A DNA stretch of 64,000 bases from a virus: IMG/VR virus record IMGVR_UViG_3300044956_000431, positions 1 through 64,000 of that record; one strand, written 5' to 3'. Within the stretch, counting starts at the first letter, position 1. Each line of letters starts with the position of its first letter. This document shows, piece by piece, positions 4,574 to 31,808 of this stretch. The notes under the pieces are model-generated. The model saw only the letters and a program-made list of their open reading frames with translations. It searched no databases and was not told the DNA's origin. The position numbers were made by a program, and so were the translations under genes.

Positions 4574-6141
4574 TGAGAGACCTACTAAATCTAGTCGATG
4601 AGTTTTCAGAAGCACGTGGACTCAGCGCCAGAAAACCTGGCGAAATCTATGCCCGTGTTGGCAGTGATGCCGAAGATGACCAAATAACCTTTCAAGCTCT
4701 GGATTTTTATCCAGATCGCGGATCCTACGAGTCCATGGATCAAATGATGGATGTGTTGGATCAACTAGAGACCCAAGCAGGCATAAAGTTTGAGCCTATA
4801 AATCAACCCAGCAACCGCACCAAAGCCTTTGGTGTGGCTGCCTTTGATACCGCAGTGGGTCGCAGATATCTAGTAAAGTTTGCCGCAGACATCAAGCCTG
4901 TGCGTACTCAAAACACTTTTTTCCAGACCAAAGACATTCCGGGTGGGTTCAGCCAAACTGATGTTCGCGGTTCAAAGGAAAAAGTTGGATACAAGCCCAG
5001 TGACGTGCTTGAAGATTTCAAAAGCCAGACACCTGCTTCAATTTTGGCTCAGATAGCCAAACGTTTCAGTGAAGACAGCGATGAGTACAATGCTGCTGTG
5101 ATCATTGCCAATGCCAAACAGTTTCCTGTGTTGGTACCCGCAGGCAACATGAACTTCAAGGGCTTTCGTGACTACTTCTGTGAAATGCTACAGCCCTGTG
5201 TGCTGATCAATGGTGCACCGGTGAGTGGCAATGCGGCCAAGGCTGTCCAAGTGTTCATGGGCCAAAATGGATTCTCGGACTGTGTGGTCAGCTTCAACAC
5301 CAATGTATCAGGCACGTTGTATGATTCGCTATTGGTCAATCCTAAAGGCAAGCAGATCAAACTGTCTAGCAAGGGTGCCAAAGGCGCCATGGCTTCAGTG
5401 ATCAATCTGTTGAAATCCGCACGTGAACTGGAAGAAGCTGGTTTAGGCAACATCGTGGAACCTTACCAACAAATCATCGACGTACTAAAAATCATCGACA
5501 ATGGCGATCACAACTCGGGTCCATTAAACTTGGCCATACAACAAGAAATGATCACGCCCGAAGAAGCACAGCAAGTGATGTTGCTGAAATCAGCGGCTGG
5601 GAAAAAAGGGTTTGATATCGATCAGACCAATCTCACAGACAACTTAAAAGCCATATACAAAGAACGCACAGCAGAAGATCCCAGCAAAGTAGTGCCACTG
5701 AACCACATGGTAGCTTCTATCGCTTACAAAGTCTGCAACAAGATCAACACCAGCACCAACTTCTCCGAAGCGGCTGCTGACATCCTCAACAACTCGGCCT
5801 TTGTACAGATGTACACTGATGCCGCACAAAAAGGAGATCAGTTTGTGATCAAAGGTTTTACCACTGTGTGGCCTTCAAAACTGTTTACTGATGTAACGCT
5901 GGAGGCAAAAAAAAGCTATAGTTCGACCACCAGCTCGGGCGGCAAGTTGGTATTCAACATCAACAAAGAACCCAAGGCTGTACCCAACACAGAACAAAGT
6001 TCTACCACAGATGCTCCGGGTCCAAGTCGTGCCGGGGAACTGGTTGATTATATTCCGCCGCGCAGTGATCTCAAGGCTGCAGATACAGCAAAGGCCGGCA
6101 ATGATGCGGCCCTGGGTCGCAGACGTAGGAAAAGTTTTTAA
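4573..6141 (+). CDS. Large phage protein of unknown function, 522 aa
   Basis: No known domain recognised. The N-terminal 60 residues are acidic. Residues about 170-330 contain a mixed alpha/beta region ending in KQIKLSSKGAKGA and a helix-rich stretch with NGDHNSGPLN. The C-terminal 70 residues are low complexity (Ser, Thr, Pro) and end in the basic tail GRRRRKSF. The KxSSKG segment and the folded core recall phage nuclease-like families, but this is only an impression. It is a plus-strand island between two minus-strand ClpP-type genes. No Shine-Dalgarno site is obvious. Confidence 0.7.
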   Translation: MRDLLNLVDEFSEARGLSARKPGEIYARVGSDAEDDQITFQALDFYPDRGSYESMDQMMDVLDQLETQAGIKFEPINQPSNRTKAFGVAAFDTAVGRRYLVKFAADIKPVRTQNTFFQTKDIPGGFSQTDVRGSKEKVGYKPSDVLEDFKSQTPASILAQIAKRFSEDSDEYNAAVIIANAKQFPVLVPAGNMNFKGFRDYFCEMLQPCVLINGAPVSGNAAKAVQVFMGQNGFSDCVVSFNTNVSGTLYDSLLVNPKGKQIKLSSKGAKGAMASVINLLKSARELEEAGLGNIVEPYQQIIDVLKIIDNGDHNSGPLNLAIQQEMITPEEAQQVMLLKSAAGKKGFDIDQTNLTDNLKAIYKERTAEDPSKVVPLNHMVASIAYKVCNKINTSTNFSEAAADILNNSAFVQMYTDAAQKGDQFVIKGFTTVWPSKLFTDVTLEAKKSYSSTTSSGGKLVFNINKEPKAVPNTEQSSTTDAPGPSRAGELVDYIPPRSDLKAADTAKAGNDAALGRRRRKSF

Positions 6142-6722
6142 CGACTGATGTTGGCAATGTGATTGCAGATGCCCAGTTCCAGTGCTTCTTGGGCAGATAA
6201 CCAAACATCATTGGGTGGTAACAGTTTGGTTTTTATAGTTTCTTCATATAGTCCAGTGGTTTCTCGATAATGATTGATCATGCGCTGTTGGGTCAGGCCA
6301 AACTCTTTGGTTATAGCAAACAGTTCGTGATGCTTGCCATCTGACCCCCACGAATACTGATGACTCAAGATTGAAGTATTGGGAGTCAGCACTCGCCGGC
6401 CTTGTGTGCCTGCTAAGAAAATCAACAAGCCACAGCTGGCTATCTGTCCCAAGCCCACTGTTTTGATAGGAATGTTACTGCTCTTCATGACATCTATTAG
6501 CGCAAAGGCTTCTTCTATATTTCCGCCACGCGAACAAATCATCAAGATCAGCTCTTTCTTTTTCTTCTGTTTGACGATGTAGTTTTCATGCAAGATCCAC
6601 TCAATGATGGGCAACATGTTATTTTCATCGACGTCGCCCATAAAAGTATAGATACCACTCTTTTTGAGGTCGTCACCGGGAGAATATGTAATATCGTCTT
6701 TGTCTTGGATCATTGATGTCAT
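6138..6722 (-). CDS. ClpP-like serine protease, second copy, altered triad
   Basis: 194 residues with ClpP/crotonase-type core: SRGGNIEEAF (oxyanion strand), Ser96 in QIASCGLL and His121 in ILSHQYSWG. The C-terminal SAQEALELG aligns with the canonical clpP at 3206, but the position of its catalytic Asp171 is a Leu here (LLPPND), leaving only a nearby Asp172. It could be a non-canonical or inactive partner subunit in a mixed ClpP ring, as known for paired ClpPs in some bacteria. That role is inferred. Its last 4 bases overlap the convergent gene. Confidence 0.85.
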   Translation of the reverse strand: MTSMIQDKDDITYSPGDDLKKSGIYTFMGDVDENNMLPIIEWILHENYIVKQKKKKELILMICSRGGNIEEAFALIDVMKSSNIPIKTVGLGQIASCGLLIFLAGTQGRRVLTPNTSILSHQYSWGSDGKHHELFAITKEFGLTQQRMINHYRETTGLYEETIKTKLLPPNDVWLSAQEALELGICNHIANISR

Positions 6723-8817: not shown

Positions 8818-9093
8818 TTAATTGGTTTTGGTCTGTGCTGTGTATGCTTTCATGATGCCTTCACCAAACTTGGTGTAGTCAAACTTGGCGGCTTCTTGGG
8901 CGTGTTTCACAGTTTCTTGGATCACCGTGATACCTGCGTCGATGGTGGCTTTGACAGCTTTTTTAGTGTACTCAGTCTGGTTGTCGATGAACTGGTTCAG
9001 TGCGTCAGCGATTTTTTCGTCTGTGACGAAAGTCTTTACGAACTGCTTCTTACCTGTTTGTACTGCGTCGATTGTTGCGTCATATGTAAACAT
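8818..9093 (-). CDS. Phasin-like protein, 91 aa
   Basis: All-helical and amphipathic, with Lys/Ala/Gln-rich heptads (DQNQTEYTKKAVKAT-like region, residues 38-75) and no cysteine, matching the short phasin family (Phasin_2-like) that coats polyhydroxyalkanoate granules in Proteobacteria. AAGGAG precedes the ATG. The gene has its own promoter with a palindrome, a leader hairpin and a terminator, so it is an independently controlled single-gene unit. It could redirect the host's carbon store during infection. Another short coiled-coil function is possible since the family is low in sequence specificity. Confidence 0.65.
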   Translation of the reverse strand: MFTYDATIDAVQTGKKQFVKTFVTDEKIADALNQFIDNQTEYTKKAVKATIDAGITVIQETVKHAQEAAKFDYTKFGEGIMKAYTAQTKTN

Positions 9094-9125
9094 TGTTTTC
9101 TCCTTGATTAAGCTGGTTTACTAAA

Positions 9126-9151
9126 CAAGACCCGCCCTATGCGGCATCTTG
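9126..9151 (-). promoter_or_regulatory. Leader hairpin of the phasin message
   Basis: In the transcript, CAAGA...TCTTG pairs around an inner GCCGC/GCGGG-type stem. It lies between the predicted start of transcription and the ribosome site and may protect the message or modulate it. Confidence 0.45.
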
Positions 9152-9162
9152 TGTGTTGCATT

Positions 9163-9195
9163 ATTATATATGATACTTATGTTGCAATGCAACAT
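9163..9195 (-). promoter_or_regulatory. Phasin promoter with overlapping palindromic operator
   Basis: Minus strand TTGCAT, 18 bases, TATAAT. The -35 lies within the perfect 17-base palindrome ATGTTGCA A TGCAACAT (9179-9195). A repressor bound there would block RNA polymerase. PhaR-type repressors of phasin genes are known to bind TGC-rich repeats, so host PhaR is the natural candidate. That is inference. Confidence 0.6.
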
Positions 9196-22149: not shown

Positions 22150-23040
22150 TCATTGTATTTTGAACCTTACATAGTCAACAATCCGTTGTGCCATATCTTG
22201 TTCACAAAACTTGTCCATGCCTTTGAACCCTGGACTTGAATTTGCCTCACAGATTTTGTAACCGTCTCGATCAAATAACAGATCAACTCCGGCAATTTGC
22301 AGTCCTAAAACTCTTGCTGTTTCTCTGGCCAAGTAATCAATTTCTTCGTTTATTTCAAATAATTCAGCAGAGCCGCCTTGACTGATGTTGGCACGGAAGT
22401 CACCATCAACACCTTTCCGCTTCATAGCAACAACACACTTGCCGCCAATTACCCATACACGAAGATCCGTGCCTGGTTGTGCGTCTACAAACTCTTGAAT
22501 GATAAGTGTTTTCTTTAGAGCAATGCTTGACAACAATTCCATTAGACCATCGAATATTTTGCGGCTTTCGCATAGATAAACAGTTTTGCCTCTGCTTCCA
22601 CTTGTGGCTTTTACCACACATGGGAACCCAATTTCTTTTTCAATTAAATCAACATCGACATCACCATTGACCAAAACAGTCTTGGGAATTGATAGTCCTG
22701 CTTGTGCTAGTGCTTGACTGGTAGCCAGTTTGTCTGCCACTGTTCCAACACTGGCACTGTCGTTAATTACAGGAACACTCAATCGTTCAAATTGGCGCAT
22801 CAGTGCCAAAGTGAAATAAGCACTACCCGATCCTGTCCTACTTAGAATTAAATCTGGTAAATCAATACGTTCACCTCTGTAACGTATACTTTTACCACTT
22901 CCACGACTGACAATAATATCAAAATATTTTGGTTCAAGAATTTTGGCTTCTATTTCATTACTAGAAAAGCATTCTAACAATCTTTTATTTTCGTAATTTT
23001 CTATACCGGATGCATGATGCAATATCCAAACTTTTTTCAT
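22150..23040 (-). CDS. RimK-like ATP-grasp ligase, 296 aa
   Basis: ATP-grasp core visible as FPCVVKATSGSRGKTV (P-loop-like), the IQEFV hinge, a DLRVWVIGGK strand, the GVDGDFRANISQGG loop and the metal-binding NSSPGF. RimK and relatives join glutamate or similar amino acids to protein C-termini or small acceptors using ATP and give a peptide-like bond. Here the substrate is unknown. The gene follows an LpxH-like hydrolase (TAATGA junction), so the two enzymes may act on one substrate. Confidence 0.8.
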   Translation of the reverse strand: MKKVWILHHASGIENYENKRLLECFSSNEIEAKILEPKYFDIIVSRGSGKSIRYRGERIDLPDLILSRTGSGSAYFTLALMRQFERLSVPVINDSASVGTVADKLATSQALAQAGLSIPKTVLVNGDVDVDLIEKEIGFPCVVKATSGSRGKTVYLCESRKIFDGLMELLSSIALKKTLIIQEFVDAQPGTDLRVWVIGGKCVVAMKRKGVDGDFRANISQGGSAELFEINEEIDYLARETARVLGLQIAGVDLLFDRDGYKICEANSSPGFKGMDKFCEQDMAQRIVDYVRFKIQ

Positions 23041-27073: not shown

Positions 27074-27865
27074 ATGAAACTTGCATTTGATTTAATTTCA
27101 GATCTTCACATCGAAACTTGGGAAGGATCTTTTGATTGGACCGGGCAATCTACCAGCATGATTTGTGTAGTAGCCGGAGACATCGCTAGAGACAGAGACA
27201 TCGTGATCAAAACTCTTACCCATCTGGGTCAGTGTTATCGAGCTGTGTTTTACATAGATGGCAACGATGAGCATCGTTTTTCTCTGGATGACATGGGCGA
27301 AAGTTATCGTAGTCTGGCCAAACAGATAGAACAAATACCCAATGTGACCTATCTACAGGACAATGTGTGCATTGTTGATGGCGTGGCTTTTCTTGGTACC
27401 AATGCATGGTGGACCTTTGATCTAGACTCAGAAATAGACTATGACCAAAGCAGACAATGGTTCCGTGAAAGATACCAGATCAATGAACCTGAAGTAAACA
27501 ATGTTGAAGCCATGGCATTCAATGACTATGCATACCTAGCCAAAAGTGTGGAACGACTGCAAACACACCGTGATGTAAAAAAAATAGTGCTGGTCACCCA
27601 CACTGTACCATCTCTACAGTTGATCGATCATGATCTAGAGCTTGCTGGTACCTACAGACTCAACTGTACCGGCAACAGCCACATACTCAAAGTTTTCCAA
27701 AATGACACCGAACGCAAGATCAGCACATGGTGCTTTGGACACTATCACAACGATGTTGATCATGAGATAGCAGGTGTACGATTTGTGAATAACTGTCGAG
27801 GACGTAGAGGTACTGCCTGGAGCAAATCAGTGTATTATCCCAAGCGCATAGAAGTGACCCTTTAG
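27074..27865 (+). CDS. Calcineurin-like metallophosphoesterase, 263 aa
   Basis: Metal motifs: SDLHIE, a GDI, GNDEH (usual GNHE, with Asp in place of His), VTHT and GHYHND. Mixed active-site ligands suggest a phosphodiesterase or pyrophosphatase with altered metal use. It is unrelated in detail to the LpxH-like protein at 23040. Targets of phage relatives include cyclic nucleotides and tRNA or nucleotide phosphates, but none is indicated here. It converges on clpS with a 4-base overlap. Confidence 0.75.
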   Translation: MKLAFDLISDLHIETWEGSFDWTGQSTSMICVVAGDIARDRDIVIKTLTHLGQCYRAVFYIDGNDEHRFSLDDMGESYRSLAKQIEQIPNVTYLQDNVCIVDGVAFLGTNAWWTFDLDSEIDYDQSRQWFRERYQINEPEVNNVEAMAFNDYAYLAKSVERLQTHRDVKKIVLVTHTVPSLQLIDHDLELAGTYRLNCTGNSHILKVFQNDTERKISTWCFGHYHNDVDHEIAGVRFVNNCRGRRGTAWSKSVYYPKRIEVTL

Positions 27866-28176
27866 GTCGCGTCAGGCTCGAGTTTGACCTGTAAAGGATA
27901 TCCGGCGCCACGTGCATCAACTGTAACTTCGATGCCTTTTTGCTCGGCCATTTCATAAGGTAACACTGCTACAACAGCAGAACCTTCTTGGTGGATATCT
28001 ATGGTGAGTTTTTCAGCAGTTGAGGGACTGTAATCAAAATGCTCCACCAAGCTGTCAATCACAAACTCCATGCTGGTCTGATTATCATTGAGATAAATGA
28101 CTTTGAACATGGGCGGCTCTTTGATATCTTCTCTGGGTTTTATTTTAGTTTTAGTTTCGGTAGCAGTATATAACAT
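27862..28176 (-). CDS. clpS: ClpS adaptor protein, 104 aa
   Basis: The core PPMFKVIYLNDNQTSMEF followed by VIDSLVEHF and the helix and strand pattern ending at YPLQVKLEP match E. coli ClpS, which delivers N-degron substrates to ClpA. N-degron pocket residues: Asn34, Asp35 and Met40 equivalents are conserved (ND, TSMEF), Asp36 is Asn, the gatekeeper Met62 is Thr (KLTIDIH), and His66 is kept. The altered gatekeeper may change which N-terminal residues are bound. The start (28176) has AAGGGAAAG upstream. The upstream open extension overlaps a hairpin and is rejected. Confidence 0.9.
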   Translation of the reverse strand: MLYTATETKTKIKPREDIKEPPMFKVIYLNDNQTSMEFVIDSLVEHFDYSPSTAEKLTIDIHQEGSAVVAVLPYEMAEQKGIEVTVDARGAGYPLQVKLEPDAT

Positions 28177-28192
28177 CTCTTTCCCTTGCGTT

Positions 28193-28215
28193 GTGTGGGG
28201 GCGTCGCCCCCACAC
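28193..28215 (-). promoter_or_regulatory. GC-rich perfect inverted repeat in the clpS leader
   Basis: GTGTGGGGGCG / CGCCCCCACAC, 11 base pairs around one base. With the TAAATA at 28217-28222 the expected message begins near 28211 and so opens with a blunt hairpin GGGGGCG-A-CGCCCCC. No U-tract follows on either strand, so it is not a typical terminator. Confidence 0.6.
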
Positions 28216-28216
28216 G

Positions 28217-28222
28217 TATTTA
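28217..28222 (-). promoter_or_regulatory. Late-type TAAATAC promoter of clpS
   Basis: Minus strand CGTAAATACG between hsp20 and clpS, followed by the GC-rich hairpin and a ribosome site before ATG 28176. Confidence 0.5.
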
Positions 28223-28243
28223 CGATGCTATGCTAGTATTATA

Positions 28244-28681
28244 TCACTTTGCATAACTAATAACAATACGCTTTGGCTTCATTTCTTCGGGCACAATGCG
28301 TTGCAGGTGTACACAAAGGATACCGTCTTTCATAACAGCGTCACGAACTTCTACATAGTCTGCCAGTTGAAAAGTACGCACAAACTTGCGGGCACTGATT
28401 CCACGGTGTAGATAGTTCAGTTCGCTTTCATCGTTGTTTTTCTCGCCGGTGACAACCAACTGTCCTTCGTGAAAATCCACAGACACTTCGCCTTCGGCAA
28501 ATCCTGCTACAGCGATCTGGATTTCATAGGTGTCTTCACCGGTTTTCAAGATGTTGTAGGGCGGATAGTTTTGGCTCTGTGCGGCATGGTCAAACTGATC
28601 CATGATGCGGTTGAACAAGCGATCAACGCCGATTGTGTTGCGATAGAAAGGTGTGAGATCAAAAGATGTGATTTTAGTCAT
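28244..28681 (-). CDS. Hsp20/alpha-crystallin small heat shock protein, 145 aa
   Basis: The alpha-crystallin domain spans about residues 38-140: YPPYNILKTGEDTYEIQIAV, AGFAEGEVSVDFHEGQLVV, the arginine-bearing ISARKFVRTFQL, and the ending DGILCVHLQRIVPEE, which resembles the IbpA/IbpB group. Such proteins bind unfolding proteins and keep them soluble. T4-like phages commonly carry one. A perfect TATAAATA lies upstream, so this should be a late gene, expected when virion proteins are abundant. It is next to clpS, bS21 and clpX. Confidence 0.9.
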   Translation of the reverse strand: MTKITSFDLTPFYRNTIGVDRLFNRIMDQFDHAAQSQNYPPYNILKTGEDTYEIQIAVAGFAEGEVSVDFHEGQLVVTGEKNNDESELNYLHRGISARKFVRTFQLADYVEVRDAVMKDGILCVHLQRIVPEEMKPKRIVISYAK

Positions 28682-28743
28682 AGTTTTCTCCTTTTAATAA
28701 GCAAGTTGACTAGTGTAGACCCGACCATCGGCATCTACATGCT

Positions 28744-28751
28744 TATTTATA
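28744..28751 (-). promoter_or_regulatory. Perfect T4-type late promoter TATAAATA for hsp20
   Basis: Minus strand, in the gap between the 72-aa gene and hsp20. Predicted start near 28738 and a leader of about 57 bases ending in AAAGGAGAAAACT before the ATG. Confidence 0.7.
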
Positions 28752-28770
28752 ATAGATTTTTTAGAGGGTG

Positions 28771-28989
28771 TCAATAACCTTCGTTGCCGATATTGACTAT
28801 TTTGTAGGGTTCACCTTGCCAGCTCATGCGAAAAAGAGTAAAGTCTCTTTCTCGATTGAGTCCTAAGCGATGTTGATTTTTGATAGTTTTTTGTGTGTAT
28901 TGTATTTGATACTGTTGGGCCCAGTCAGCTATCTGTTGCTTGACTAGTTCTAAGTCAACAACAGATCTGACATCAAATACAATGTACAT
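28771..28989 (-). CDS. Small phage protein of unknown function, 72 aa
   Basis: Begins MYIVFDVRSVVDLELVKQQI, then a basic, glutamine-rich region and a strand pair FTLFRMSWQGEPYKIVNIGN. It looks like a compact alpha/beta protein. Its start overlaps the stop of the bS21 gene (TAATG), so it is translated with it. Being next to bS21 and hsp20 suggests an accessory translation or stress role, but no family was recognised. Confidence 0.55.
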   Translation of the reverse strand: MYIVFDVRSVVDLELVKQQIADWAQQYQIQYTQKTIKNQHRLGLNRERDFTLFRMSWQGEPYKIVNIGNEGY

Positions 28990-29210
28990 TAAAACAATTT
29001 AGGCGGCAGTTGTTGACTGCGTAGATATTTTTGCCAGCGTTTTTTGGCTGCTGATGCTTTGAGCTTGCGCTGTGTAGTAGCCTTGACATGGTGTTCGCGT
29101 TCTTTGAGCTCAAACAACAGACCCGAGTTTTCTATCTTTTTCTTTAACTTGCGCAGGGCTCGTTCTATGTTGCCGTCATTGACTATCACTGATTTTCCCA
29201 AACTATTCAT
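28989..29210 (-). CDS. rpsU: Ribosomal protein bS21, 73 aa
   Basis: Matches bS21 across the conserved region: VIVNDGNIERALRKLKKKIE, the ENSGLLFELKEREHH segment and the AT(T)QRKLKASAAKKRWQKYL basic tail, with the length of a host bS21. In bacteria bS21 sits near the anti-Shine-Dalgarno end of 16S rRNA and helps initiation. Phages of the HTVC008M and huge freshwater types are known to carry it. It overlaps clpX by 8 bases (ATGAATAG), so synthesis of the two is linked. It could bias ribosomes to phage messages, including leaderless ones. Confidence 0.9.
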   Translation of the reverse strand: MNSLGKSVIVNDGNIERALRKLKKKIENSGLLFELKEREHHVKATTQRKLKASAAKKRWQKYLRSQQLPPKLF

Positions 29211-30402
29211 CCTTGTATATTGGTCTAGGATTATTTATTTGGGTCTTGTCAATAACTACGCGATTTATTCCGCGATCGCGATAGCGTTTGATATGATACA
29301 TGTGCGGCAACAACACCCGTTCCATTTCTGAATGCAAAGCACGGGCACCGGTACCAAAGTCTGCGGATCTCTGTGCAATGGTTTCTAGAGCGCCTTGGTC
29401 AAAATCCAAATCAACTTGATCCACTGCAAATAGCTGTTGATACTGGCGTACCAGGCTGTTCTTGGTATCTGTGAGCACATGTATGAGATCATCGGTTGTG
29501 AGCTCATCTAAGTTTACCCAACTAGGAAAGCGACCCACAAACTCAGGAATCATACCAAACTTCACAAGATCATCGGGTACCACTTGATCCAGGCCAACGT
29601 CTTTGGTCTGCCGCACTTCTGCGTTGAAGCCCATGGAACTGCCATACAGACGTTTTTGCACCAGAGCTTCCAGGCCGACAAAAGCACCACCTGCAATGAA
29701 CAAGATGTTGCGTGTGTCTATTTCTATCATCTCGCCACCGGGATGTTTGCGGCCACCCTGCGGAGGTACTCTGCACAGGGTGCCTTCTACCATTTTTAAC
29801 AAGGCTTGTTGCACACCTTCACCGGATACATCTCTGGTAATAGAAGTTGATTCAGATTTGCGGGCAATCTTGTCTATTTCATCCACAAACACTATGCCGC
29901 GTTTGCATCTCTCTACGTCACCGCCGGCTGCGGTGAGCAGTCTAGTAATAAGACTTTCTACATCATCGCCTACATAGCCAGCTTCGGTAATGCTGGTAGC
30001 ATCTGCTATGGCAAAAGGTACGTCAAGATAACGTGCCACTGTCTTGGCCAACAGAGTTTTACCCGACCCTGTAGGACCGAGCATGAGAATATTGGCCTTG
30101 TCTATTTCTACGTCTTTGCTGGTGTGTTGTATGCGTTTGTAATGATTGGCGATGGCCACACTGAGCACGGTTTTGGCTCGATCTTGCCCGATAACATATT
30201 GATCCAAATAGGCTTTGAGTTCTTGCGGATCAATATCGTTTAGATCTTTTTTGTCAGGAGTGGCTTGTTCGTCGATCAGCAGGCTCTGACATAGATCCAC
30301 ACATTCGTTGCAAATAGCTACTTCGTTGCCAACGATGAGTTTCTTTACTTCGTCTTTGTGTTTGTTACAAAAACTGCATTTTTCATAGAGGTTTTCTGCC
30401 AT
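29203..30402 (-). CDS. clpX: ClpX ATP-dependent unfoldase, 399 aa
   Basis: Complete for the family: an N-terminal zinc-binding domain with four cysteines (CSFC and CNEC), Walker [14 protein letters not shown], pore loop GYVG, Walker [10 protein letters not shown], the RKH loop (QGGRKHP), and the ClpP-docking loop (SSMGF instead of IGF), plus the sensor and C-terminal D2-like region. ClpX unfolds tagged proteins and feeds them to ClpP. Gene order clpX-bS21-72 aa-hsp20-clpS forms one accessory cluster; clpP is 25 kb away. It ends in TAG. Confidence 0.95.
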
Positions 30403-30404
30403 GT

Positions 30405-31808
30405 TTATCCTAGTTTGCTGTCAGCACGTAGGCGTTGTTCTATTTGTTGTTTTTCGTTGTCGTTGAGGAGATCAGGATCGTATTCGCCGGATCCAATCTT
30501 GGCAATAAGGTGGTCAATGTATTCATCATTATATGCAAATGTGTCCGTGGAGTTTTTGTCTATCTCGATCCATTTCTGTCCATTCCATTTGAACAGCTTG
30601 GTTGGAAGATAGTCTACTCGTATATATGCATCGCCTTTGACCGGGTCGTTGGGAAACCGAGTGCCAAAGTCAACATCATTGAAATCATCAATGTCATCTG
30701 TTCGTGCTTGGATCACATCTTCCCAAGGCAGTTTTTGTATCCTGCCTTGCTCTAGCAGTTGTTCTTGACGATGTATGGTATCGTCAGGATTTTGTTCTTT
30801 CCACAATCTACGAGCTATCTTTTCAGGATTGTTTTCGTCAGTGGATTCTTTAGGGTAGGTACTCGCTGTTTCTATTTCTGGCTCTAATGGTCTTTGTTCT
30901 GGTTCTGCTTGTGGTGTATCCACCACTGCAACCAAGGGTTGCACATCAGGCTCAGTTCTTGTATCCAATCCCACCAAATTTTTGGCATTAGATTTATCAT
31001 GATCATCCAGTTGGCCGGCATCGTCACTCTCCTTTGTTGTTTGAGTATGTTTTTCGCGTTCCCACTTCATTGATTCAGTGGCGGCAAGCAACATTATAAC
31101 GGCCAAAGGATCAAATACCAAGACTAAAACGATTATAACCCAACTTACTGCTTTTTCCAACAGATTGGCGTCAGGATTGTCACCGTAGATCAAAGCTGCG
31201 ATATATTTTACAGGACCGACCTCAGCTTCTACTTTGCGCAGTTCGCTGGCAACGGGTGCTCGTTCTTCGTTGAGTGCGGCTATTTTTTTCTGTGCTGTGG
31301 TAATATCATTTTGCAATATACCACGCTCACGTGCTTGACTGCGTCTTAGTTGTGCGGCTTTGTCTGCACCTTTTTCATCGTTGCTACGACTCATGGTTTG
31401 ATCCACCGCCTCGTCCATTTGACGCAGAGCTTTGCGGGCGGCTTCTATGTTGTCACGCTCGGTCTTGATTTTTTCATCTATGAGCTGTACTCGGGCGGCT
31501 ACATCTCCTGTGGGCACTACTTGATCTAAATGCGCCTTGCTCAAGAATCCAAATATACCCATCGAAGTGATCAGCATCAGTACCGCCACCGCAGTGACCA
31601 AATACAGTTTCATGCTACGTCTGACCTGTGCCCAGTATTCATGCAACCACACTGTTACAGTGAGCTTGGCGATTTCTAACACGGATCCCATTACAGCAAT
31701 AGGTACAGCTGCCGCGGCAAAGATGACCATGAGACCCACTATAGAATAAAAAGCAGCGATAGCGCTAAGGCACAGTGCCACTCCCAGCATGATATATGTT
31801 AAGAGCAT
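30405..31808 (-). CDS. Phage membrane protein with coiled coil, 467 aa
   Basis: Three hydrophobic segments near the start (about residues 3-25, 28-52, 68-90), a long charged coiled coil (105-190, with KIKTERDNIEAARKALRQMD), another membrane segment (around 220-245), then a disordered acidic region and a C-terminal ordered motif (VKGDAYIRVDYLPTKLFKWN and GQKWIEIDKNSTD). The C-terminal element is seen in several phage tail or fibre-associated proteins, so it may anchor at the cell membrane and project a domain. Function is not known. Confidence 0.6.
   Translation of the reverse strand: MLLTYIMLGVALCLSAIAAFYSIVGLMVIFAAAAVPIAVMGSVLEIAKLTVTVWLHEYWAQVRRSMKLYLVTAVAVLMLITSMGIFGFLSKAHLDQVVPTGDVAARVQLIDEKIKTERDNIEAARKALRQMDEAVDQTMSRSNDEKGADKAAQLRRSQARERGILQNDITTAQKKIAALNEERAPVASELRKVEAEVGPVKYIAALIYGDNPDANLLEKAVSWVIIVLVLVFDPLAVIMLLAATESMKWEREKHTQTTKESDDAGQLDDHDKSNAKNLVGLDTRTEPDVQPLVAVVDTPQAEPEQRPLEPEIETASTYPKESTDENNPEKIARRLWKEQNPDDTIHRQEQLLEQGRIQKLPWEDVIQARTDDIDDFNDVDFGTRFPNDPVKGDAYIRVDYLPTKLFKWNGQKWIEIDKNSTDTFAYNDEYIDHLIAKIGSGEYDPDLLNDNEKQQIEQRLRADSKLG

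Follow-up and report, generated by a model that had tools for sequence, protein, structure and literature searches.

Large phages with components of the Clp proteolytic machinery have been described before. Agrobacterium phage Atu_ph07 was listed in 2018 with seven Clp-family proteins, including ClpX, ClpA, ClpB, ClpP and ClpS (PMC6102473), Iyer et al. proposed that phage ClpS feeds the host ClpAP machine (PMC7824862), and Chen et al. noted phage copies of ribosomal protein bS21 near Hsp20 and Clp genes (PMC9723584). Phages are also known to carry two-piece permuted transfer-messenger RNAs (tmRNA), e.g. phage Melnitz (PMC9004378). ROSE elements, in turn, have been described as always tied to bacterial small heat-shock genes (PMC4166951), and other phage thermometers exist in lambda cIII and in blyA of prophage SPbeta (PMC10586365). 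Here, we analyzed a stretch of 64,000 nucleotides (the window), comprising the first 64 kb of the 109,984-b IMG/VR virus record IMGVR_UViG_3300044956_000431 and hence only part of a 110-kb contig. Its phage character is clear from genes for a DnaB-type helicase, a primase, a DNA ligase, a ribonucleotide reductase and tail-type proteins. It harbors a cluster of genes for ClpX, bS21, Hsp20 and ClpS, which is probably the visible part of a self-contained proteostasis system encoded by a lineage of freshwater jumbo phages with genomes of 300-364 kb.

The cluster gene order recurs in described phages. In Atu_ph07 (ClpX, Hsp20, tk, ClpS, ClpP1), ClpX, Hsp20 and ClpS have the same order and direction as in the window, and ClpP lies ~28 kb downstream of ClpX, compared with 26.6 kb from ClpX to ClpP1 in the window. 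Atu_ph07 differs in having ClpB, in the thymidine kinase gene (tk) between Hsp20 and ClpS, and in its ClpS, which is only 29% identical to that of the window over 84 aa. The Atu_ph07 ClpS (locus L428:31272-31574; loci and records are cited below by L and G numbers) also lacks residues matching N34 and H66, so that any binding of N-degrons may take an unusual form. The cultured Sinorhizobium phage Phosso (PV764938) shares the order ClpX, bS21, Hsp20, ClpS, with tk before ClpS, and has ClpA, ClpP1 (69%) and ClpP2 (48%) elsewhere in the genome like the window lineage; in contrast to the window, its genome is 469 kb long and many inserted genes leave ~17 kb between clpX and clpS. The Wroclawvirus-type Pseudomonas phages Deifobo, Paride and PA5oct are alike in having bS21, Hsp20 and ClpS in order (Deifobo) and ClpA, but they are of 288 kb and have no ClpX beside bS21. 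Since the order is shared by Atu_ph07, Phosso and Deifobo, the cluster is of old origin and common to several groups of phages. The rarity that the initial annotation had attributed to such a near-complete set was overstated, given Atu_ph07 (PMC6102473) and, in IMG/VR, at least 220 ClpS, at least 309 ClpA and at least 474 ClpX relatives.

In the window, the genes for a 467-aa protein, ClpX, bS21, a 72-aa open reading frame (ORF), Hsp20 and ClpS follow one another on the minus strand, the first of them only a few bases apart or slightly overlapping, and ClpP1 and the divergent ClpP2 lie ~25 kb downstream of the cluster. Pfam confirmed all of these Clp, Hsp20 and bS21 genes where the initial annotation had placed them (Table 1), and by its residues each Clp protein belongs to its family. 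The window ClpX has the four zinc cysteines, Walker A and B motifs, the GYVG pore loop, an RKH loop, an MGF loop for binding ClpP, the arginine finger and sensor 2. The RKH loop varies among 55 phage ClpX proteins; the ClpP-docking loop reads I/M/L-GF in 55/55, with only its first residue varying, and the other elements are invariant in all of them. Phage ClpS keeps the contacts to the N-degron alpha-amine (N34, D35, H66) in 64/64 proteins, and E79 and K84, which we take to contact the ClpA N-domain in E. coli ClpS, are equally invariant (64/64). In its hydrophobic pocket, M40, V43 and L99 are kept or nearly so, and M62T occurs in 63 of 64. The Ser-His-Asp triad of ClpP is intact in 18 of 18 ClpP1 and 15 of 15 ClpP2 proteins. 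Compared with ClpXP and ClpAPS of E. coli, the parts and active residues are the same, and we assume the same degradation logic; the phage set differs in the ClpS pocket substitution M62T, in the additional ClpP2, and in a ClpP1 that begins at the position of the mature E. coli ClpP start and so has no propeptide.

ClpX and ClpS are inherited together. ClpX, bS21, Hsp20 and ClpS occur in the same order in most of 80 loci fetched from the 220 ClpS relatives. Among loci selected by ClpX, ClpS is present in 57/57 with at least 5.9 kb of downstream DNA, and the six loci without ClpS end 0.26-1.2 kb past ClpX. This co-occurrence is far beyond chance: given enough DNA, the two genes are found together, the exceptions being small lineages that have lost ClpX and retain ClpS. 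The genes thus do not occur only singly in relatives, and the set noted in the initial annotation is real, conserved and inherited together. Between genomes, the protein distances of ClpS, ClpX, ClpA, ClpP1 and ClpP2 are also correlated (r 0.41-0.87; permutation p at most 0.004).

No ClpA was found in the window's own 109,984-b record, so its absence from the window, pointed out in the initial annotation, is true as such; as a trait of the phage it is an artefact of the truncated contig. In relatives, ClpA lies 66-87 kb downstream of ClpX, and the contig of the window stops 30 kb downstream of ClpX, before the place of ClpA. Of 35 related records, 18 encode a Clp_N protein, in almost every case in a frame of ~760-790 aa. 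Records selected by ClpS and of 299 kb or more have Clp_N, ClpX and ClpP in 11/11 cases; together with the ClpA-selected records G043, G045 and G055, this gives ClpA, ClpS and ClpX in all 14 records of ~300 kb or more. Of 22 ClpA-selected records, 14 contain ClpS and the same 14 contain ClpX, and in the other eight (200 kb or less) the expected place of ClpS and ClpX, worked out by hand from the positions, is off the contig. Record G031 is uncertain, as no ClpA occurs in its 77.6 kb of downstream DNA, where ClpA is reached at 73.4 kb in the related record G032. All 17 phage ClpA genes that were retrieved have intact frames of 753-772 aa, and they are 41-42% identical to E. coli ClpA end to end. 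They encode Clp_N and both AAA+ modules, with an IGF loop in 15/15, compared with IGL in E. coli ClpA, and E28 and T81 on the ClpS-contact side are kept in 15/15. Judged by sequence, ClpX, ClpA, ClpS, ClpP1 and, in some members, ClpP2 form a co-inherited set of the lineage with intact active-site or contact residues.

The initial annotation had reasoned that ClpS must use either host ClpA or phage ClpX. This choice is not supported in view of a ClpA encoded by the lineage itself, of E79 and K84 being conserved throughout, and of a record that has ClpS and ClpA in the absence of ClpX. ClpX is not beside ClpS in loci L017, L069, L074, L075, L077, L078, L080 and L081, and in G034 (L077) no zinc-domain ClpX occurs anywhere in the 149-kb record, where ClpS, ClpA and ClpP are present. 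On sequence grounds, G034 is a natural deletion experiment that favours ClpA as the partner of ClpS. Because ClpS is retained with ClpA and ClpP where ClpX was lost, phage ClpS most likely serves phage ClpA. That ClpS would hand substrates to phage ClpX, its neighbour in one cluster in most members, was rejected as highly improbable: ClpS persists without a nearby ClpX in several loci and was kept where ClpX was lost, its E79 and K84 are invariant, and ClpX has a zinc N-domain rather than Clp_N. Reprogramming of the host ClpA-ClpP machine by phage ClpS, perhaps also by ClpX, as proposed for jumbo phages with ClpS (PMC7824862), would agree with the conserved ClpA-contact residues, and the 66% identity of ClpP1 to E. 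coli ClpP makes mixed complexes plausible. We nevertheless regard it as unlikely, since the large relatives encode both ClpA and ClpP themselves, and the distance from ClpX downstream to ClpA is fixed.

A different role was considered for ClpX, ClpP2 and Hsp20, namely as remodelling chaperones or a head protease in virion assembly or DNA replication instead of general degradation. PHROGs file ClpP-type proteins as head maturation proteases, replication roles of ClpX were suggested for Atu_ph07 (PMC6102473), and a capsid-scaffolding role was suggested for Hsp20 (PMC7674155). Conservation of the ClpP-docking loop in all 55 ClpX and all 15 ClpA proteins, a ClpP1 that is a canonical ClpP, and the loss of ClpX from part of the lineage make this role improbable. 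ClpP2 has altered residues in the chaperone-docking cleft, and its nearest solved relatives are ordinary ClpP; it may share a ring with ClpP1 or work as a protease of its own, and its AlphaFold model is of low confidence (predicted local distance difference test, pLDDT, 45) and thus of no use for the heteromer question. The ClpP2 reading frame of G009 contains one TAG, and G003 (L094:8959-9033) has a predicted tRNA-Pyl whose anticodon, CTA, makes it a possible amber suppressor.

The genes of the Clp set are under strong purifying selection. Ratios of nonsynonymous to synonymous substitution rates (dN/dS) were 0.03-0.05 for ClpX, 0.03-0.07 for ClpX and ClpS, and 0.03-0.13 overall. By contrast, diversification is common among tools directed against changing host targets. 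A tree of 54 phage and 79 bacterial ClpX proteins places the phage proteins in one group with support 100 on a long branch, and a recent theft of clpX from a host was rejected on this ground; by this tree, phage ClpX is an old phage lineage. A system directed chiefly at the destruction of host proteins (those for defence or cell division, sigma factors or ribosomal proteins) is in line with a published proposal for phage ClpP and ClpS (PMC7824862), and the altered ClpS pocket could mean altered targets. As the chief role of the phage Clp system this is rather doubtful in view of the purifying selection and of the linked Hsp20, GroESL, DnaK, bS21 and tmRNA, which are maintenance functions. The takeover of host protein degradation raised in the initial annotation is possible, and the chaperones, the tmRNA and the heat-shock-type leaders described below point at least as much to the phage's own protein quality control.

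The nearest full-size relative, G003 (343.6 kb), encodes a permuted tmRNA with the tag ANDEVYALAA, which scores 124 bits with Rfam beta_tmRNA (cut-off 84) and 128.8 bits with tmRNA_permuted (cut-off 47). With the two families used (RF04321 and RF01850), 21 of 38 records, among them 12 of the 14 largest, have a tmRNA over cut-off; the sub-threshold matches of a search with RF00023 were mostly tRNAs, and the window fragment itself has no tmRNA. Many tags end in ALAA, e.g. ANDEQFALAA, those of G022, G046 and G057 differ, and those of G020, G034 and G055 look misread. The tmRNA resembles that of Melnitz in being two-piece, permuted and phage-carried; it differs in its betaproteobacterial type and in occurring together with phage-encoded ClpX, ClpA, ClpS and ClpP. 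Its type is only a hint as to the host group.

The Hsp20 gene of the window is preceded by a leader that resembles a ROSE thermometer (Table 1). The nearest Rfam family is ROSE_3 (RF02523), which the leader matches with 31.9 bits (E 5e-5), below the 43-bit cut-off. Since stem lengths differ between leaders, a covariance model (R1) was trained on 60 leaders including L352; it gives the window leader 87.3 bits, a score that is not independent because the near-identical L352 is among the training sequences. The bulged-G hairpin is present in 111 of 113 distinct leaders, with 21 different stems, and CUUGCUU and AAGGAG are exact in 89 of 113. In an alignment of 109 matches, which is model-fitted and leans towards structure and in which some matches are second-site copies, 88.9% of cells pair, compared with 79.8% in shuffles and no more than 67% after sliding, and 174 cells carry double changes compared with 52 in shuffles. 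The covariation is carried by helix 1; helix 2 hardly varies, so that the counts speak neither for nor against it. The architecture, with a bulged-G helix opposite the Shine-Dalgarno (SD) sequence beside a small heat-shock start codon and a covarying hairpin upstream, fits the ROSE family, and the score does not place the leader there. Like ROSE_3, the candidate thermometer is the leader of a small heat-shock gene and consists of a hairpin followed by a UUGCU-type anti-SD helix with one bulged G; unlike ROSE_3, it occurs in a phage, below the Rfam cut-off, and also before DnaK and upstream of GroES-GroEL. The Hsp20 leader of Atu_ph07 gives a weak match to R1 (23.4 bits, E 0.003 in 81 kb), that of Phosso a non-significant one (17.4 bits); the Deifobo leader has no match to R1 within E 5 and reads as a bulged-G hairpin with CUUGC near the SD.

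In some relatives, DnaK (HSP70 1e-260) or GroES and GroEL (Cpn10 8e-33, Cpn60 3e-76) are inserted between bS21 and Hsp20. Full-length DnaK lies between the two in L022 (7567-9447), L018, L020, L024, L028, L074, L075, L077, L080 and L081, including the ClpX-less group. In ten loci, namely the first nine of these and L380, the leader runs up to the start codon of DnaK; in L081 it comes close. No earlier description of a ROSE-type thermometer before DnaK was found among openly licensed papers. GroES and GroEL occur at L053:7506-9434 and similar loci, with GroEL proteins 81-98% identical to that of L053, and a leader is located ~105-140 nt upstream of GroES in nine loci. A second ROSE-like leader in the window precedes a 91-aa ORF without a confident Pfam match, and both also occur in G003 (L088:4268-4619). 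The sites that R1 matches before DnaK, GroES and the 91-aa ORF were not among its training sequences. A further leader, in L010 (19239-19325), precedes a protein that is phasin-like by eye. Taken from the sequences, most members thus add a permuted tmRNA to the Clp set, and Hsp20, in some members also DnaK or GroES-GroEL, stands behind or downstream of a ROSE-like leader.

Table 1. Features of the Clp and heat-shock genes and their surroundings in the window.
Feature	Position	Strand	Remarks
ClpP1, 197 aa	3206..3799	-	Pfam 8e-78; 66% identity to E. coli ClpP
ClpP2, divergent ClpP paralogue	6138..6722	-	Pfam 2e-28; 27% identity to E. coli ClpP
Second ROSE-like leader (candidate)	9091..9170	-	R1 37.9 bits, E 1.6e-6; ends at start codon of 91-aa ORF 8818-9093(-)
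ClpS adaptor, 104 aa from likely ATG	27862..28176	-	Pfam PF02617 5e-23; 27862-28215 if from GTG
Hsp20 small heat-shock protein, 145 aa	28244..28681	-	Pfam PF00011 1e-17, phrog_432
ROSE-like Hsp20 leader (candidate)	28679..28756	-	bulged-G hairpin, then CUU(G)CUU pairing SD AAGGAG; ends at start codon
Putative sigma-70 promoter, -10 TATAAA	28746..28751	-	sequence reading
Putative sigma-70 promoter, -35 TTGACA	28769..28774	-	sequence reading, consensus only; 17-nt spacer; in many relatives too
72-aa ORF	28771..28989	-	1-base overlap with bS21; in many, not all, relatives
Ribosomal protein bS21, 73 aa	28989..29210	-	Pfam PF01165 5e-16; 8-base overlap with clpX
ClpX, 399 aa	29203..30402	-	Pfam zf-C4_ClpX 2e-14, AAA_2 2e-30
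467-aa protein, conserved neighbour	30405..31808	-	directly upstream of clpX, same direction; weak sub-threshold DUF4407

Upstream of Hsp20, the motif TATAAATA was considered as a T4-like late promoter; it is not clearly enriched genome-wide (five seen and 2.5 expected in the window, 12 seen and 9 expected in G003) and fits better as the -10 box behind TTGACA. For ClpS, the ATG at 28176 is a better candidate start than the GTG at 28215, because the SD AAGGGA is located just upstream and the resulting length of ~104 aa matches relatives. The 72-aa ORF has no match in Pfam or PHROG. In one subgroup (L061, L073, L026, L071), a protein of 775-795 aa whose N-terminus has a lipoprotein-like signal and a glycine run is encoded upstream of Hsp20, on the ClpX side. 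A RimK-like ATP-grasp protein at 22150-23040 on the minus strand (PF08443 8e-43) is a possible further ribosome-modifying gene near bS21.

In the proposed self-contained system, phage ClpS would dock on the N-domain of phage ClpA and pass on N-degron proteins, and phage ClpA (IGF loop) and ClpX (I/M-GF loop) would both dock on phage ClpP1. The phage tmRNA, with host SmpB, would rescue ribosomes stalled on phage or decaying host mRNAs, and the -ALAA-tagged products would go mainly to ClpXP. Warming would melt the Hsp20 leader and free the SD, so that more holdase is made. The net role is likely to keep folding and degradation running through a long infection with host gene expression off, degradation of selected host proteins being a possible secondary use. 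More tentative, although plausible, is a temperature-sensing phage network in which the tmRNA tags stalled products for ClpXP, ClpS feeds ClpAP, and ROSE-type thermometers switch Hsp20 and, in relatives, DnaK and perhaps GroESL. Several observations weigh against these proposals. The window genome is a fragment whose ClpA and tmRNA are deduced from relatives (the predicted places being ~83 kb downstream of clpX for clpA and ~150 kb for the tmRNA), and two of the 14 large records have no tmRNA over cut-off. Aat, SmpB and SspB were not found in the records searched (Bpt was not searched for), and the making of N-degrons and trans-translation would therefore need host partners. The ClpS pocket is changed relative to E. 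coli by M62T and by D36N (56/64), and its specificity may differ; ClpP2 is present in seven of 11 large records and missing in four. The leaders scored 31.9-36.6 bits with ROSE_3, below its gathering score, and none of 12 further loci exceeded it; the predicted SD pairing is 0.72 at 10 C and still 0.60 at 45 C, a weak melting in the energy model; and in the GroES case the ATG of the leader begins, in most of those read, an ORF of very few codons (~8 aa in L053).

Clp sets (Atu_ph07, 2018) and phage tmRNAs were already known; new are the lineage-wide conservation, the ancient synteny, the combination of Clp proteins with tmRNA and the thermometer-like leaders. The phage proteostasis set is real, ancient and widespread, and the leaders, absent from the initial annotation, are its most surprising part. 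With our results, it becomes possible to test whether Clp and chaperone genes are retained by jumbo phages for host takeover or for self-maintenance, and the cultured relatives Phosso, Atu_ph07 and Deifobo/Paride can serve as models. The lineage also offers a source of natural compact Clp parts and of candidate RNA thermometers that evolved apart from bacterial ones. If the proposed system holds true, large phages would carry an orthogonal quality control complete enough to separate phage from host proteostasis, with a heat-shock-type response of its own.

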